From the NCBI GenBank assembly GCA_009693045.1, contig SHXZ01000004.1, positions 62,001-126,000 of the forward strand: DNA of 64,000 nt. Reading direction: 5' to 3'. Under the pieces are notes generated by a model. It saw only the letters and a list, made by a program, of their open reading frames with translations. It was not told the DNA's origin and did not search any database. The translations under genes and the position numbers were made by a program. Each line of letters starts with the position of its first letter. Positions within the stretch are counted from its first letter, which is position 1. Positions 4,458 to 48,547 of the stretch are shown piece after piece. Origin of the DNA: Dehalococcoidia bacterium. Its GTDB lineage: Bacteria; Chloroflexota; Dehalococcoidia; Lucifugimonadales; SHYT01.

Positions 4458-4570
4458 CGGGTAGGGGCGTCCCGACGCGTTGGGACGCCCCTACCCGTAC
4501 TGATGGTGCGCGGGGTTAACAAGGTGGGGCACCACCAGTGGTGTAGGGGCGCACGGTCGTGCGCCCCTAC
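4458..4570. repeat. Two GTAGGGGCG-type palindromes
   Basis: Between 4311 and 4606 there is no gene. It holds two members of a dispersed palindrome family. One has 16-bp arms at 4458-4473 and 4482-4497 (CGGGTAGGGGCGTCCC). The other has 12-bp arms, GTAGGGGCGCAC at 4543-4554 and its complement at 4559-4570. The second matches perfect copies around the transposase near 42.7 kb. Confidence 0.85.
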
Positions 4571-12616: not shown

Positions 12617-12659
12617 GCCAGAGGGGGAGCCCCACACTGAATGGGGCTCCCCCTCTGGC
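12617..12659 (+). terminator. Hairpin after the monooxygenase gene
   Basis: A perfect 18-bp inverted repeat (12,617-12,634 with 12,642-12,659) with a 7-base loop lies 18 bases after the stop codon. No T tract follows, so it may act weakly or be a repeat-derived hairpin. Confidence 0.6.
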
Positions 12660-24397: not shown

Positions 24398-24429
24398 AAG
24401 TAGGGGCGATTTATGAATCACCCCTACTT
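24398..24429. repeat. GTAGGGG-type palindrome upstream of ubiD
   Basis: Arms of 14 bases (24,398-24,411 and 24,416-24,429) pair with one mismatch (AAGTAGGGGCGATT). It lies between the ubiX stop and the ubiD start and belongs to the family with members at 4.5, 42-43.6 and 48.5 kb. Confidence 0.75.
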
Positions 24430-40679: not shown

Positions 40680-40725
40680 AAATAGGCGAGGAAAAACCTG
40701 TTTACAAGGGGGGCCTCGCCTATTT
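40680..40725 (-). terminator. Hairpin overlapping the dehydrogenase stop
   Basis: Arms AAATAGGCGAGG (40,680-40,691) and 40,714-40,725 pair perfectly around a 22-base loop. It covers the stop codon region of the minus-strand gene at 40,720. The 221 bases between this and the M1 gene hold no supported gene. Confidence 0.6.
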
Positions 40726-41697
40726 GCGTAACTTCTTCAGCGCGTCCGGGTTGATCACCCGCACGGGTTCACCAGAGAGGAAGCCTCGGATGTCCTCCAC
40801 GGTCTCCTGGTAGAACTGCTCGTAGGTCTCCTTGGTGACGTAGCCCAGGTGCGGCGTCAGGACGACATTCTCCAGGGAGAGGAACGGGTGGCCAGGCGAC
40901 AGCGGCTCCTCGTCAAACACGTCTAGGCCCGCGCCGGCGATGCGCTTGGCGCGCAGCGCGTCCGCCAATGCCTCCTCGTCCACGATGGGCCCGCGCGAGG
41001 TGTTGACGAGGTAAGCGGTTGGCTTCATCATGGCCAGCTCGCGGGCGCCGATGAGGCCGCGCGTGCGGTCGCTGAGGCGCGTCTGGATGGTGACGACGTC
41101 GGACGTGCGGAGCAGCTCGTCCTTGGAGATGAGGCGTGCGCCGTGCTGGGCGGCGCGCTCGGCAGTGAGGTTCTGGCTCCACGCCACCACGTCCATGCCG
41201 AGGGCCTTGCCGACGGCGCAGACCTGCAAGCCGAGCCTGCCGACGCCGATGACGCCCAGCCGCTTGCCGTTCGCGCCGATGCCCACCGAGACCTGCCATT
41301 TGCCTTCTCGGACGGCGCGGTCCTCGGCGGGGATGTTGCGGAGCAGTGCAAAGATGAGGCCCCACGTCAGCTCGGCGGTGGGGTAGCCTAGGACACCGGT
41401 GCCGGATACCGCAATGCCGAGCTCGGTGGCGGCCTGCACGTCTATGGCCGCGTTGCTCATGCCGGTGGTGACGAGGAGCTTGAGGCCAGGCAGACGCTGG
41501 AGGACGGAGCGAGGGAACGCAGTGCGCTCGCGCATGGCGCAGACCACCTCGAAGCCCTGGAGTCGCCTGGCGAGGGCGCCCGGGTCCTTGAGGTGATCGC
41601 GGAAGACCTGGACCTCTGCGCCGCGGGGGAGCACGGTCCAGTCGGCGTAACTCAGGGCGACGCCCTGGTAGTCGTCAAGGACGGCGATCCGGGTCAT
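40720..41697 (-). CDS. D-2-hydroxyacid dehydrogenase family protein
   Basis: 325 residues. NAD-binding GVIGVGRLGLQV, catalytic Arg in TRLSDRTRGLIG, Glu in DVFDEEPL and His in TPHLGYVTKETYEQF complete the family triad. Such enzymes reduce 2-oxo acids with NAD(P)H; close relatives act on glyoxylate, hydroxypyruvate or phosphoglycerate. The first 16 codons (MTRIAVLDDYQGVALS) occur again at 42,299-42,345 as a truncated copy, bracketing a DUF4258/DUF2283 cassette upstream. The substrate is not predictable. Confidence 0.92.
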   Translation of the reverse strand: MTRIAVLDDYQGVALSYADWTVLPRGAEVQVFRDHLKDPGALARRLQGFEVVCAMRERTAFPRSVLQRLPGLKLLVTTGMSNAAIDVQAATELGIAVSGTGVLGYPTAELTWGLIFALLRNIPAEDRAVREGKWQVSVGIGANGKRLGVIGVGRLGLQVCAVGKALGMDVVAWSQNLTAERAAQHGARLISKDELLRTSDVVTIQTRLSDRTRGLIGARELAMMKPTAYLVNTSRGPIVDEEALADALRAKRIAGAGLDVFDEEPLSPGHPFLSLENVVLTPHLGYVTKETYEQFYQETVEDIRGFLSGEPVRVINPDALKKLRK

Positions 41698-41722
41698 AAC
41701 GCCTCACCCTCACCCTCACCAC

Positions 41723-41968
41723 TTAACGTGGAGAGGGGAATTCGTCCTCTCGCAGAGGGCAAACCGAGCACTTAGGGGCGGCTTGGAACCCTATTCTACG
41801 GGGTTGGGCCACGCGGCGGGAGGCATCCAGGATCTCCAGAGAAACAAGGTTGCCCTGCGCGTCATAGTCCAGCACGGTGCCAGGCTTATCCTCGTCGCTC
41901 TCCGTTACCGGGGTGTCCTGCAAGATCACGGTCAGCGTATCCGTTTGCAGGTCATAGATGACTTTCAT
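41723..41968 (-). CDS. DUF2283 protein
   Basis: 81 residues from ATG 41,968, which follows GGAGGCAATCCCC. MKVIYDLQTDTLTVILQDTP, then DEDKPGTVLDYDAQGNLVSL and EILDASRR is the standard DUF2283 pattern of beta strands. These small proteins are usually found right after a DUF4258 gene and are suspected antitoxin-like partners. The frame is open upstream through that gene, so the two could also be fused by loss of the DUF4258 stop. The C-terminal tail (CSVCPLREDEFPSPR) comes from repeat-like sequence. Confidence 0.85.
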   Translation of the reverse strand: MKVIYDLQTDTLTVILQDTPVTESDEDKPGTVLDYDAQGNLVSLEILDASRRVAQPRRIGFQAAPKCSVCPLREDEFPSPR

Positions 41969-42244
41969 GGGGATTGCCTCCAGTATTTCACGACCCTTGC
42001 TCGTCCGGTAGGTGGTGACGACTTCTGCTGGGCTTCTGTCGGTGTCCACAAAGACGCGAATCAGATACTCGCGGCCTGCGAGGACTACGCGGTTCTGCAA
42101 CGCCAAGCGTCCCGGCCGGACCTGATCGGTCTACTGAGGAGCTGCCAAGACCCCTCGCACCTGCTCCTCTGTGACGCTGCACCGTTCCATTTCAAGGCGG
42201 GCGTGGTCTGTTATCACGTAGGCGGAGACTGGGCGCGGTTTCAT
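41969..42244 (-). pseudogene. DUF4258 protein, amber-interrupted and fused to DUF2283
   Basis: The frame begins at ATG 42,244 and reads VSAYVITDHARLEMERCSVT, EEQVRGVLAAPQ, TAG at 42,131-42,133, then TDQVRPGRLALQNRVVLAG, EYLIRVFVDTDRSPAEVV and TTYRTSKGRE. This is the DUF4258 domain, a compact RelE/BrnT-like fold. At the TAG, relatives carry Gln or Glu, one base away. Its own stop is absent and it runs into the DUF2283 gene. Toxin-like function is family speculation; the lesion makes it inactive if real. Confidence 0.8.
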
Positions 42245-42298
42245 TCTACCCCACCAGGGTCAGAGCGCGCGCTTTAGGTACGATGTGCAACGACGTGG

Positions 42299-42345
42299 CT
42301 CAGGGCGACGCCCTGGTAGTCGTCAGGAACGGCGATGCGGGTCAT
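42299..42345 (-). pseudogene. Truncated copy of the 5' end of the hydroxyacid dehydrogenase gene
   Basis: 47 bases match 41,651-41,697 at 44 positions and encode MTRIAVPDDYQGVALS. It is a direct repeat flanking the DUF4258/DUF2283 genes at a distance of about 600 bases. Confidence 0.85.
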
Positions 42346-42359
42346 GGTTCCCCTTTTCT

Positions 42360-42437
42360 GTAGTCAGGGCGCACTGCGTGCGCCCTGACTACAGGATACG
42401 CCATGCGATCGTTAGGGCGCACGCGGTGCGCCCCTAC
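42360..42437. repeat. Two GGGCGCAC palindromes downstream of the transposase
   Basis: The first has 15-bp arms (GTAGTCAGGGCGCAC at 42,360-42,374 with 42,378-42,392). The second, 42,411-42,437, is an imperfect copy of GTAGGGGCGCAC and its complement that overlaps the transposase stop. Confidence 0.85.
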
Positions 42438-43003
42438 AGAGAGCGAGACGCTATCCCGTTAGCGGAGTTCAGGTCGTCGTTCGACCATTGGAACGGGTTA
42501 GCGGCGATGTATTCTCGGATGCGGTTGAATTCGGCCTGGTCACGGATGACATGTTCGTAGTAGTTGCGTTGCCAGACAGGAGAGCCAGGGTTGTGGCGTA
42601 CCTGATTAATCTGTTTGGTGGCGGAAGCCTTGAATCCGGCGACAAGGGACCCTAAGGATTTTGGTGATCTCTGTAGGGGCGCACGGCCGTGCGCCCCTAC
42701 AGACTTGTCCGCGCTACGTTCCGGTGTTGGAGAGAAGAGAACGATGGAGTGGAGGTGGTTTGGCATGACAACAAAGGTGTCTACCTGGACCTCACGACGT
42801 ATTGATGCGGTCCGTAGCCATTCGACCCGGACGATTCCGCCAGGATCATTGAGATGCATGCCGTCGTTAGCGATTTCGCCAAAGAGGGGTTCGCGTTGGT
42901 AGGTGCAGAGGGTGAGGAAGTACGCACCGGCCGACGAGTAGTCATAGCCCGAAAGATGGATAGAACGTCGGTGATGGAGGTCGGGGTGGTAGTGGGCGGG
43001 CAT
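42434..43003 (-). CDS. REP-associated tyrosine transposase (RAYT, Y1/IS200-like) with internal palindrome
   Basis: 189 residues from ATG 43,003. YDYSSAGAYFLTLCTYQREP is the N-terminal strand, MPNHLHSIV the HUH metal motif, and RNYYEHVIRD holds the catalytic Tyr, followed by IREYIAANPFQW. The perfect 28-base palindrome at 42,673-42,700 lies inside the gene and is translated as VGAHGRAPLQ between the HUH motif and LGSLVAGFKASATKQIN. Frame and catalytic residues stay intact, so the enzyme may work. Upstream, the palindrome at 43,045 gives the same peptide in frame, but no start supports that extension; TATAAT ends 7 bases before the ATG, suggesting a near-leaderless message. RAYTs move or process REP-type palindromes. 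Confidence 0.92.
   Translation of the reverse strand: MPAHYHPDLHHRRSIHLSGYDYSSAGAYFLTLCTYQREPLFGEIANDGMHLNDPGGIVRVEWLRTASIRREVQVDTFVVMPNHLHSIVLFSPTPERSADKSVGAHGRAPLQRSPKSLGSLVAGFKASATKQINQVRHNPGSPVWQRNYYEHVIRDQAEFNRIREYIAANPFQWSNDDLNSANGIASRSL
42673..42700. repeat. Perfect GTAGGGGCGCAC palindrome inside the RAYT gene
   Basis: 28 bases, fully self-complementary (arms GTAGGGGCGCACGG and its complement). Identical to the copy at 43,045-43,072. Confidence 0.95.
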
Positions 43004-43044
43004 GGGGAGAATTATACGCGGGACGGAGGTGGATTTGGCGAATT

Positions 43045-43145
43045 GTAGGGGCGCACGGCCGTGCGCCCCTACGGACGGGGACGGACGGTTGGCCCGTTGA
43101 GGCGAGAGGTGCACGCGGACGGGGTGCACGGCCGTGCGCCCCTAC
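43045..43145. repeat. Palindromes upstream of the RAYT gene
   Basis: A perfect 28-base copy at 43,045-43,072 and a partial one at 43,121-43,145 that lost its outer left arm. Between them CCCGTTGAGG and GCACGCGG are unmatched. They lie 42-142 bases upstream of the start codon. Confidence 0.9.
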
Positions 43146-43169
43146 GGATGGGCGCGGAGGCGGGTGCCA

Positions 43170-43439
43170 TCACCCGCCCGCGATGGCGGGGACGAAGTGA
43201 ACCTCGCTGTCCGCCTTGACCTGCTCCATAAGGCCCAAGTGGGAAACCTCGCCGTCCACGACCACGGCGATCTCGGGGCGCAGGCGATCGTCCTCTGGGT
43301 CGTACAGGTGCTCAAGGATGTCCGGATAGTTCTTGCCGAGGTTGAACACAATTTGCCGGACGGATGCGCCAGGCACCTCAAGGCGCTTGGCCCCGCCGGT
43401 GAGCTTTTGCATCATGGGGGGGATCCAGACGTCTGCCAT
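43170..43439 (-). CDS. MoaD/ThiS-family sulfur carrier
   Basis: 89 residues with a ubiquitin-like pattern (RLEVPGASVRQIVFNLGKNY, then RPEIAVVVDGEVSHLG and VHFVPAIAGG) ending in Gly-Gly, the residue pair that is adenylated and thiocarboxylated. It could supply sulfur for molybdopterin; the molybdenum hydroxylase operon ends about 190 bases upstream on the same strand, which favours a MoaD role over ThiS. It is longer than minimal MoaD, so it might be a MoaD-like paralogue for another carrier pathway. Confidence 0.85.
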   Translation of the reverse strand: MADVWIPPMMQKLTGGAKRLEVPGASVRQIVFNLGKNYPDILEHLYDPEDDRLRPEIAVVVDGEVSHLGLMEQVKADSEVHFVPAIAGG

Positions 43440-43553
43440 GGCGGGCCTCGTGTGCTGGTATGCCTATTCGTCGCCCCTCCATGATGGAGCGAGGAAGGCG
43501 TTTTTGCAACTCCAACAGCGCCCTTTGGCCGGGCAAGTGTTGGTCAAGAAGCG

Positions 43554-43588
43554 CTGGTAGGGGCGGGTTCAAAACCCGCCCCTACCAG
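43554..43588. repeat. GTAGGGGCGGGTT palindrome
   Basis: 16-bp perfect arms (CTGGTAGGGGCGGGTT at 43,554-43,569 with 43,573-43,588) and CAA loop, downstream of the coxL-like gene. It may also act as its terminator. Confidence 0.9.
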
Positions 43589-43628
43589 TTAGCCAACAAA
43601 AGGCTGCTCCGAGGTGTCTGCTCCCGCC

Positions 43629-45911
43629 TTAGCGCTTGCCGTTGCCCTTGGCCTGGATAGCGGCGAGGACGGCGCCGGGGGACATGGGCAGGTCGGTCAT
43701 GCGCACGCCAATGGCGCGCTTCATGGCGTTGGCGACGGCGGCGGGCGGCGGCACGATGGGCACCTCGCCGACGCCGCGGACGCCGAAGGGGTGACCGGGG
43801 TTCGCCACTTCCACGATGACGGTGTCAATCATCGGCAGATCAAGGGCCGTCGGCATGCGGTAATCCAGGAACGTGGGGTTGGCCATCGTCCCCTGGTTGG
43901 TGAAGAAGTACTCCTCGTTGAGGGCCCAGCCAATGCCCTGGGCGACGCCGCCCTGCATCTGGCCTTCCACGTAGCTGGGGTGGATGGCCTTGCCGGCGTC
44001 CTGAACGATGGTGGCGCGGAGGACCTGGGTCTTGCCGGTCTCGGGGTCAACCTCAACGTCGGCGATGACGGCGGCGAAGGCGGGGCCGACGCCGCGGGCG
44101 TCCACGCTGGCGCGCCCGGCGAGAGGGCCGCCGGTGGTGAGGAGCCTGCCCGCGAGCTCCGTGAAGGTCATCTTCCGCTCGTAGGAGGGCTTGAGCTTGA
44201 ACTCGCCCTTCTCAAACTCCACGTTGTCGGCCGTGGTCTCCCATATCTTGGCGGCGCGCTCAATCAGCTGCTTCTTCAGGTCCTGGGCCGCCTCGTAGGC
44301 GGCGAGGCCGCCCTTGAAGGCGACGCTGCTGCCGCCGGTGAGGCTGGTGTAGCCGATGGAGTCGGTGTCCACGACGGTGGGGGTCACCTTATCGGCGGGA
44401 ATGCCGAGCACCTCGGCGGCCTGCATGGCGATGGCGGCGCGGGTACCACCGATATCGGCGGCGCCCTCAATAAGGCTGACGGTGCCGTCTGGGTTCATGG
44501 CGATGTAGCAGCTTGCCGGCCCCCCCGCGTTGAACCAGAAGCCCGCCGCGAAGCCGCGGCCTCGGTTCTTGCCGGTGAGGGGCGTCTTCCAGTGCGGGTG
44601 GTTCTTGGCGGCCTGCAGGACCTCCATGAAGCCGACCTTGCCGAAGGCGGGGCCGTCCACGCGGCGGTCACCCTGCTTGACGCCGTTGAGGATGCGGAAG
44701 TCAATGGGGTCCATCTTGAGGTTCTCGCACAACTCGTCCACGACCGACTCCACAGCCATGGCGGCGTGCGTTGCGCCGGGCGCGCGGTAAGCGGCGGTCT
44801 TCTGCTTGTTGACCACCACGTCGTAGCCGTCCACCTGAGCGTTGTCCAGGTTGTAGCACGCCAGCGCGCACATGGCGCCGGCGTTGACCGGGGAGCCGGG
44901 AAAGGCGCCCGCCTCAAACATCAGCGAGACCTCTGCGGCGGTGATACGGCCTTCCTTGTTGGCGCCCATCTTGACCTTCATGTAGCTGCCCGGCGTGGGG
45001 CCTGTGCCCTCAAACACTTCGGTGCGAGACATGATGGCCTTGACCGGGTGGCCGGTCTTCTTGGCGAGGAGAGCGACCACCGGCTCCAGGTACACACCCA
45101 GCTTGCCGCCAAAGCCACCACCAATCTCCGTGGGGATGACCTTGACGTTGGACTCCGGGATCTTGAGCAGGGTGGCGACCTGGGAACGGACGTTGAAGGA
45201 GCCTTGGGTGCTGCACCAGATGGTGAGCTTGCCATCCACGTTCCAGTTGGCCGTGGCGGCGTGCGGCTCAATGTACCCCTGGTGGACCGCGGCGGTGTTG
45301 AACTCGCGCTCCACCACCACGTCCGCCTGCTTGAAGCCGTCTGCGGGCTCGCCCTTCTTGAAGCGGAAGTGGTTGGCAATGTTGCTGTGTTTGGTGGTGC
45401 GCTGGCCGAACTCCTGCATCAACATGTCCTCGTGCAGGAGCGGGGCGCCGTCCTTCATGGCGTCAAGGACGTTCAGGGCGGGAGGGAGGACCTCGTAGTC
45501 AACCTTGATGAGCGAAAGGGCTTCTTCCGCGATGTGGGCGCTGGTGGCGGCAACGGCGGCAACCGCCTGGCCTTTGTACAGCACTTTGTTGCCCGCCAGG
45601 ACGTTGCTGCTCAGGAAGCGTAAGCGGACGGCGGTCTCGCCCAGATCCTGCATGCGGTCTGAGGCCACAGCGGGGATGTCGGCGGCGGTGATGACGGCCC
45701 TGACGCCCGGCAATGCCGCAGCCTTGCTGGTGTCAATGGACTTGATGCGGGCGTGTGGGTGCGGGCTGCGGAGGATCTTGGCGGACAGCAGCCCGGCCAT
45801 CTGGATGTCGGCAGCGTACTTGGCCCGACCAATGACCTTGTCCAGCCCGTCATGGCGGATGGGGCGGGTGCCAATAACGCTGTACTCGGGCGCCGGAGCG
45901 GTCGTCGTCAT
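43629..45911 (-). CDS. Xanthine-dehydrogenase-family molybdenum subunit (operon copy)
   Basis: 760 residues. IGTRPIRHDGLDKVIGRAKY, IGGGFGGKLGVYLEPV, AAYRAPGATHAAMAVE and GVRGVGEVPIVPP (with the catalytic Glu) are all present. It is the third gene of a complete operon: the flavin subunit, iron-sulfur subunit and this one, in the usual CoxM-CoxS-CoxL order. Its ATG overlaps the iron-sulfur subunit stop by four bases. The motif that marks form I CO dehydrogenase (AYRCSFR) is not seen, so an organic substrate is more likely. It is closely related to the lone copies at 35.3 and 57 kb. Confidence 0.95.
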   Translation of the reverse strand: MTTTAPAPEYSVIGTRPIRHDGLDKVIGRAKYAADIQMAGLLSAKILRSPHPHARIKSIDTSKAAALPGVRAVITAADIPAVASDRMQDLGETAVRLRFLSSNVLAGNKVLYKGQAVAAVAATSAHIAEEALSLIKVDYEVLPPALNVLDAMKDGAPLLHEDMLMQEFGQRTTKHSNIANHFRFKKGEPADGFKQADVVVEREFNTAAVHQGYIEPHAATANWNVDGKLTIWCSTQGSFNVRSQVATLLKIPESNVKVIPTEIGGGFGGKLGVYLEPVVALLAKKTGHPVKAIMSRTEVFEGTGPTPGSYMKVKMGANKEGRITAAEVSLMFEAGAFPGSPVNAGAMCALACYNLDNAQVDGYDVVVNKQKTAAYRAPGATHAAMAVESVVDELCENLKMDPIDFRILNGVKQGDRRVDGPAFGKVGFMEVLQAAKNHPHWKTPLTGKNRGRGFAAGFWFNAGGPASCYIAMNPDGTVSLIEGAADIGGTRAAIAMQAAEVLGIPADKVTPTVVDTDSIGYTSLTGGSSVAFKGGLAAYEAAQDLKKQLIERAAKIWETTADNVEFEKGEFKLKPSYERKMTFTELAGRLLTTGGPLAGRASVDARGVGPAFAAVIADVEVDPETGKTQVLRATIVQDAGKAIHPSYVEGQMQGGVAQGIGWALNEEYFFTNQGTMANPTFLDYRMPTALDLPMIDTVIVEVANPGHPFGVRGVGEVPIVPPPAAVANAMKRAIGVRMTDLPMSPGAVLAAIQAKGNGKR

Positions 45912-48462: not shown

Positions 48463-48547
48463 GCCCAAGCTACTGGTGTCTAAAAACGCAGAAGGGGCGG
48501 GTCTTTGACCCGCCCCTTCTGCGTTTTTAGACACCAGTAGCTTGGGC
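48463..48547. terminator. Perfect 41-bp inverted repeat between convergent genes
   Basis: Arms 48,463-48,503 and 48,507-48,547 are exactly complementary, with a TTT loop. The centre is a family-type GGGGCGGGTC palindrome and the outer part has TTTTTAG on both strands. It should work as a terminator for both NIPSNAP and PAC2 messages, and it may have arisen by an insertion and its inversion. Confidence 0.9.

Follow-up and report, generated by a model that had tools for sequence, protein, structure and literature searches.

The locus analyzed here raises the question of why a transposase gene carries, in frame within its own coding sequence, a perfect copy of the palindrome by which it is surrounded. 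Few bacterial repeats are as common as REPs, whose mode of spread is unsettled. The gene is located in a window of 64,000 nucleotides (the whole stretch of DNA analyzed; contig SHXZ01000004.1 of a Dehalococcoidia bacterium), to which all positions below refer. The first-pass annotation had proposed either a tolerated self-insertion or a regulatory loop in which the protein binds its own gene or message.

The RAYT Gene and Its Product

Open-reading-frame analysis, profiles and structural modeling revealed a gene encoding a REP-associated tyrosine transposase (RAYT/TnpA_REP, 189 aa) on the minus strand (gene position 43003–42434). The ORF begins with ATG and ends with TAG (42434–42436). The ATG at 43003 is most likely the true start, and a 231-aa version requires a GTG start and an N-terminal extension that runs through the upstream REP. 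The HUH motif MPNHLH (residues 80–85; 42749–42766, minus strand) and the catalytic tyrosine region (Y148/Y149 of WQRNYYE; 42557–42562, minus strand) were located by alignment. Among 71 aligned sequences, M80, P81, H83 and H85 of the HUH motif were invariant, and W144, Q145, R146 and Y148 were invariant or nearly so. Both NHLH (residues 82–85) and WQRNYYE (residues 144–150) are intact in the window RAYT.

The protein matched the NF047646 profile (REP_Tyr_transpos) with E = 5e-20 and 71.8 bits, just below the curated cut-off of 80, and the PF01797 profile (Y1_Tnp) with E = 2e-4, also just below the curated cut-off; the best-scoring stretch of the profile matches begins 3' of the insert. AlphaFold produced a model with a pLDDT of 85.7 and a pTM of 0.81. 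The top PDB match of this model was the E. coli RAYT–REP complex (4ER8, E = 2.3e-7), and the ISDra2 and IS608 transposases were also among the best fold matches; a search of the PDB by sequence gave no match at E 0.01. The E. coli protein, which is in complex with a REP hairpin in that structure, likewise has a single-tyrosine HUH fold, but its identity to the window RAYT is 18%. The window protein contains an HUH motif and a single catalytic tyrosine in an IS200-like fold, and its gene is flanked by GTAG REPs that are found genome-wide, as is characteristic of RAYT/TnpA_REP.

For TnpA_REP subclass 2.4, the published text describes REPs inserted in frame between HuH and Y, "double-foot" REPs among them (Quentin 2018, PMC6006769), so that the window case belongs, by that description, to a known kind. 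Both traits, namely double-foot REPs (GTAG...CTAC) and the in-frame insertion, are present here. The motifs of the window RAYT (NHLH, WQ and YIAANP) agree with those of subclass 2.4 (NH[IFV]H, WQ and YIxNNP) in WQ and differ in the L of the HUH motif and in an A in place of N. The locus is best explained as a REPtron composed of a RAYT of the subclass 2.4 kind and its cognate double-foot GTAG REPs. Neighboring genes on the minus strand (40723–45911) encode a D-2-hydroxyacid dehydrogenase, a DUF2283 protein, a ThiS/MoaD-like protein and a molybdopterin-binding subunit of the xanthine dehydrogenase type.

The Inner Palindrome and the Surrounding REPs

As the first-pass annotation had stated, a perfect 28-nt palindrome, GTAGGGGCGCACGGCCGTGCGCCCCTAC (GTAG...CTAC), is located inside the RAYT ORF (42673–42700), where it is read in frame as VGAHGRAPLQ (residues 102–111). 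With the adjoining TCT/AGA included, this internal double-foot REP (minus strand) becomes a 34-nt perfect palindrome (42670–42703). Residues 100–107 have a pLDDT below 50 in the AlphaFold model, and the insert is predicted to lie in a disordered loop leading from the strand at 83–90 to the helix at 117–136, away from the folded core.

The palindromes that had been reported around the gene were also found. A REP identical to the internal one is located about 40 bp upstream of the gene (43045–43072), and a partial REP with three mismatches and one foot lost lies at 43118–43145 (minus strand). Downstream, a REP at 42411–42437 (minus strand) provides, with the TAG of its GTAG foot, the RAYT stop codon, which is also the case in 30 of the 192 homologues surveyed below; it is accompanied by a GTAGTCAGGGCGCAC... 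hairpin with 17-bp arms (42358–42394). A REP of a different subfamily, with GGGTT arms, was identified through hairpin and pattern searches (43554–43588). In the window, GTAGGGGCG occurs 13 times against 0.68 ± 0.82 expected, and none of 100 shuffles reached 13.

The same palindrome had been placed at three distant sites, and this held for 4543–4570 alone, where one base is changed. The palindrome at 24400–24427 has the GTAGGGGCG tip in common with the inner one, but its arms are different. The site at 48475–48535 is of the GGGTC type: it is a 61-nt hairpin with 29-bp arms, which contains a GGGGCGGGTC REP-like core within a longer palindrome and has no GTAG foot. Another strong hairpin (12617–12659; 18-bp arms, GCCAGAGGGGGAGCCCC...) is unrelated to the GTAG REPs.

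Genome-Wide Copies and RAYT Paralogues

Pattern searches of the source assembly (1.85 Mb, 83% complete) revealed 15 copies of the inner palindrome at no more than three mismatches and 54 GTAGGGGCG...CGCCCCTAC hairpins of several subfamilies and arm types; a reversed-pattern control returned none. The longest ORFs across the other copies of the inner palindrome match no Pfam family; therefore, those copies look intergenic, and the presence of REPs inside other genes of this genome was rejected.

The genome contains five RAYT genes. The other four are 42–53% identical to that of the window over the matched stretches and are not recent copies of it; the reading frames of paralogues C and E are interrupted by an in-frame stop. 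Each linker was compared with the 1.5-kb flanks of each gene, and the longest exact match was recorded. The linkers of A (the window RAYT), B, D and E matched their own flanks over 29, 23, 28 and 31 nt, respectively, against 9–15 nt for the flanks of other paralogues. Paralogue C, with 13 nt to its own flank, was left uncounted because its linker is only vaguely REP-like. Four different palindromes are located in the same linker of A, B, D and E, each matching the flanks of its own gene.

Hairpins in the Linkers of RAYT Homologues

The survey included 192 distinct homologues, of which 78 came from named genomes of many phyla and the rest from the phylum of the window, including the same order, this phylum being taken as Chloroflexota on the basis of named relatives; they were chosen as best hits, many of the loci are metagenome-assembled and the hairpin thresholds were set by the analysts. 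Linker length varied from 11 aa to more than 100 aa. In 57% of the 192 linkers, but in 0.9% of same-length windows from those genes and 0.7% of shuffles, the stem score reached 9 or more. Sequence shared with the flanks of the gene itself (score of at least 16) occurred in 42% of linkers, compared with 1.4% of control windows, and for 79 of the 81 flank-matching linkers the own flank ranked in the top 6 of 192. Hairpin density was 5.2 per kb in the linker, 0.04 in the N-domain and 0.08 in the C-domain; outside the domains it was 2.3–2.4 per kb at up to 100 bp and 0.12–0.17 at 800–1500 bp.

The linkers contained double-foot elements in 79 cases, single-foot elements in 18, hairpins without a foot in 17 and no element in 70; eight of the 192 carried an inverted, REPIN-like pair of single-foot REPs with a spacer. 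The GTAG foot was read as VGA in 51 linkers and as xRG in 23, and the TAG-stop frame was not used in any. The tolerated self-insertion proposed in the first-pass annotation is well supported by these data: the inserts are nearly confined to a single disordered linker, they correspond to the REP that flanks the gene in question, many homologues lack them or carry decayed ones, and two of the three frames are used, never that of the GTAG stop.

Elements were 28 or 29 nt long, never a multiple of three, so that each in-frame event needed one or two extra or missing bases. A frame-neutral 30-nt unit was rejected, as the comparison of linkers with flanks gave no enrichment of 28-nt over 29-nt elements. 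An exact empty site was sought among the homologues surveyed and none was found. A fixed CT cleavage dinucleotide beside the inserts was also rejected, CC being the commonest and CT just mildly raised. Pairing extended beyond the feet, as a sign of a palindromic target, was 0.45 against 0.36 expected at +1 and close to expectation farther out, and no claim is made from it.

Two further observations concern the elements themselves. In L144, L155 and L156, the two linker ends still carry the REP arms GTAGGGGCGACCCG and CGGGTCGCCCCTAC, which are separated by about 70 nt, as though the REP had been split by an insertion or contained a long REPIN spacer. Near-identical REPs were found beside RAYTs of distantly related bacteria (L059/L077, L024/L090 and L081/L082), a similarity of sequence suggesting that entire REPtrons were transferred or that recognition classes are shared.

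Turnover and Decay of the Inner Copies

Independent sister pairs with a flanking REP were compared, and the inner copy fitted its own flanks better in 33 pairs and the sister's in 3, with 4 ties; thus, in 33 of the 36 decided pairs it was closer to the flanks of its own gene. In two homologues (L107 and L113), the inner hairpin is degraded while the outer hairpins remain paired, and insert-free linkers of 11–20 aa are present among the homologues. The RAYTs L139 and L214 (genome G207, contig C3) have cores that are 97% identical and very different copy numbers of a 15-nt half-REP encoding NVGAK. Linker arrays comparable to these tandem arrays were observed in L026, L087, L105, L183, L202 and L229.

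An insert in all distant homologues had been named beforehand as evidence against self-insertion. The outcome is mixed: more than half of them do have one at the same place, but the palindrome is mostly a different one, and this favors repeated insertion with turnover over a single fixed insert of ancestral origin.

Discussion

We consider it probable that the inner palindrome results from repeated local self-insertion, which is tolerated in the loop alone and renewed with the turnover of the REP family. The protein, which its sequence and fold show to be a RAYT, would cleave its own REP in the form of single-stranded DNA and move it, mostly over a short range, so that new REPs would land chiefly beside or within the RAYT gene. 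Selection would remove the copies that hit the folded HUH and Tyr halves or the TAG frame, and in-frame copies in the disordered linker, which connects the HUH strand to the helix that follows, would be tolerated as about 10 extra residues, probably without a function. Inner inserts later decay, grow via half-REP tandem repeats, or are joined or replaced by newer copies, and for this reason the inner REP tracks the current flanking REP of its gene. Gene conversion is a possible route of such renewal.

This reading is weakened by the failure to find an exact empty site and by element lengths that are never a multiple of three, and two further results are not predicted by simple tolerance. A hairpin occupies the linker in 52% of genes, the upstream 150 bp in 26% and the downstream 150 bp in 25%, and the partner arm is intact in 60% of feet inside linkers against 35% of flanking feet, although the latter difference may reflect the greater number of single-foot REPs in the flanks. 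Since the occupancy is twice that of the neighboring DNA and exceeds what simple tolerance would give, there is room for a site preference, for slower loss in a coding anchor or for a function, e.g., autoregulation. If the latter were true, the inner REP would be a maintained cis element: the RAYT would limit its own production by binding the hairpin, either in its mRNA or in its gene when single-stranded, and lineages would repeatedly re-acquire the hairpin at the same position. Both the occupancy and the intactness are in line with this, as are the renewal of the inner copy in step with the flanks and a paired double change in the linker of a cyanobacterial pair (Nodosilinea) (TTTGCA/TGCAAA vs. 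ATTGCA/TGCAAT), by which the stem is preserved. However, the Nodosilinea variant was also found elsewhere in a related genome, and the double change is therefore explained by copying. In addition, about 36% of the homologues (70/192) have no recognizable element, short linkers without an insert occur, and the inner copies of L107 and L113 have decayed next to outer ones that are still paired. Autoregulation is unlikely. A self-renewing element with an autoregulatory or self-marking role, rebuilt from the current REP at a fixed position of the enzyme gene by RAYT lineages across bacteria, is likewise a quite unlikely reading of the inner hairpin.

Another explanation is a single ancestral insertion that drifted, through mutation or gene conversion, in step with the flanking REPs, which agrees with the location of every insert in the same linker. 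On a tree built from the RAYT protein core, with the linker left out, at least 29 changes of insert presence are required, where shuffles average 48, and arm class, followed in 75 genes, changes 39 times against a shuffled mean of 60. Presence and arm class therefore cluster on the tree beyond shuffles, as common descent would have it, and the trait is partly inherited and partly renewed. The number of arm-class changes itself speaks against a single insertion, as do the variation of the inserts in frame (51 vs. 23), number (one to several), offset and type (double-foot vs. inverted single-foot pair with spacer) and the many genes without an insert, so that this explanation is very unlikely. 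An origin of the palindrome by chance, or from the usual low-complexity coding of a linker, for which the GC-rich linker codons could be cited, is refuted by the controls (28/28 identity to the flanking copy, own-flank matches and shuffles) and has practically no probability.

Repeated local self-insertion can be compared with known systems. As described in the published text, subclass 2.4 (PMC6006769) is similar to the present case in its double-foot REPs, its variable peripheral linker and its scattered distribution across many phyla; the present case differs in belonging to Chloroflexota and in the five paralogues found in one genome. The present analysis adds controlled frequencies of insertion, the matching, gene by gene, of linkers to their own flanks and the turnover in sister pairs, which were not found in the published text of that paper, its supplement aside. 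It also adds to the description of subclass 2.4 the inverted single-foot pairs and the half-REP tandem arrays in the linker. For subclass 2.2, to which the E. coli RAYT belongs, no REP insertions within the gene are given in Quentin's table (PMC6006769).

GTAG REPs, their in-frame intragenic copies in other genes and the TAG stops that they give to flanking ORFs are described in the text of Di Nocera et al. 2013 (PMC3733652). The likeness to the window locus lies in the GTAG-tagged hairpins beside RAYT genes and in the GTAG feet donating TAG stops, whereas insertion into the RAYT itself is not reported in that text. Rickettsia palindromic elements (RPE), as cited there (PMC3733652), are also in-frame palindromic repeats inside protein genes, but they strike many unrelated genes, and the survey presented here concerns the element's own enzyme.

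Inner REPs that match their own flanks and turn over with them constitute a natural record of recent, local and RAYT-specific movement. They provide paired sets of enzyme and substrate, for example the paralogues A, B, D and E described here, that are useful for tests of cognate recognition.
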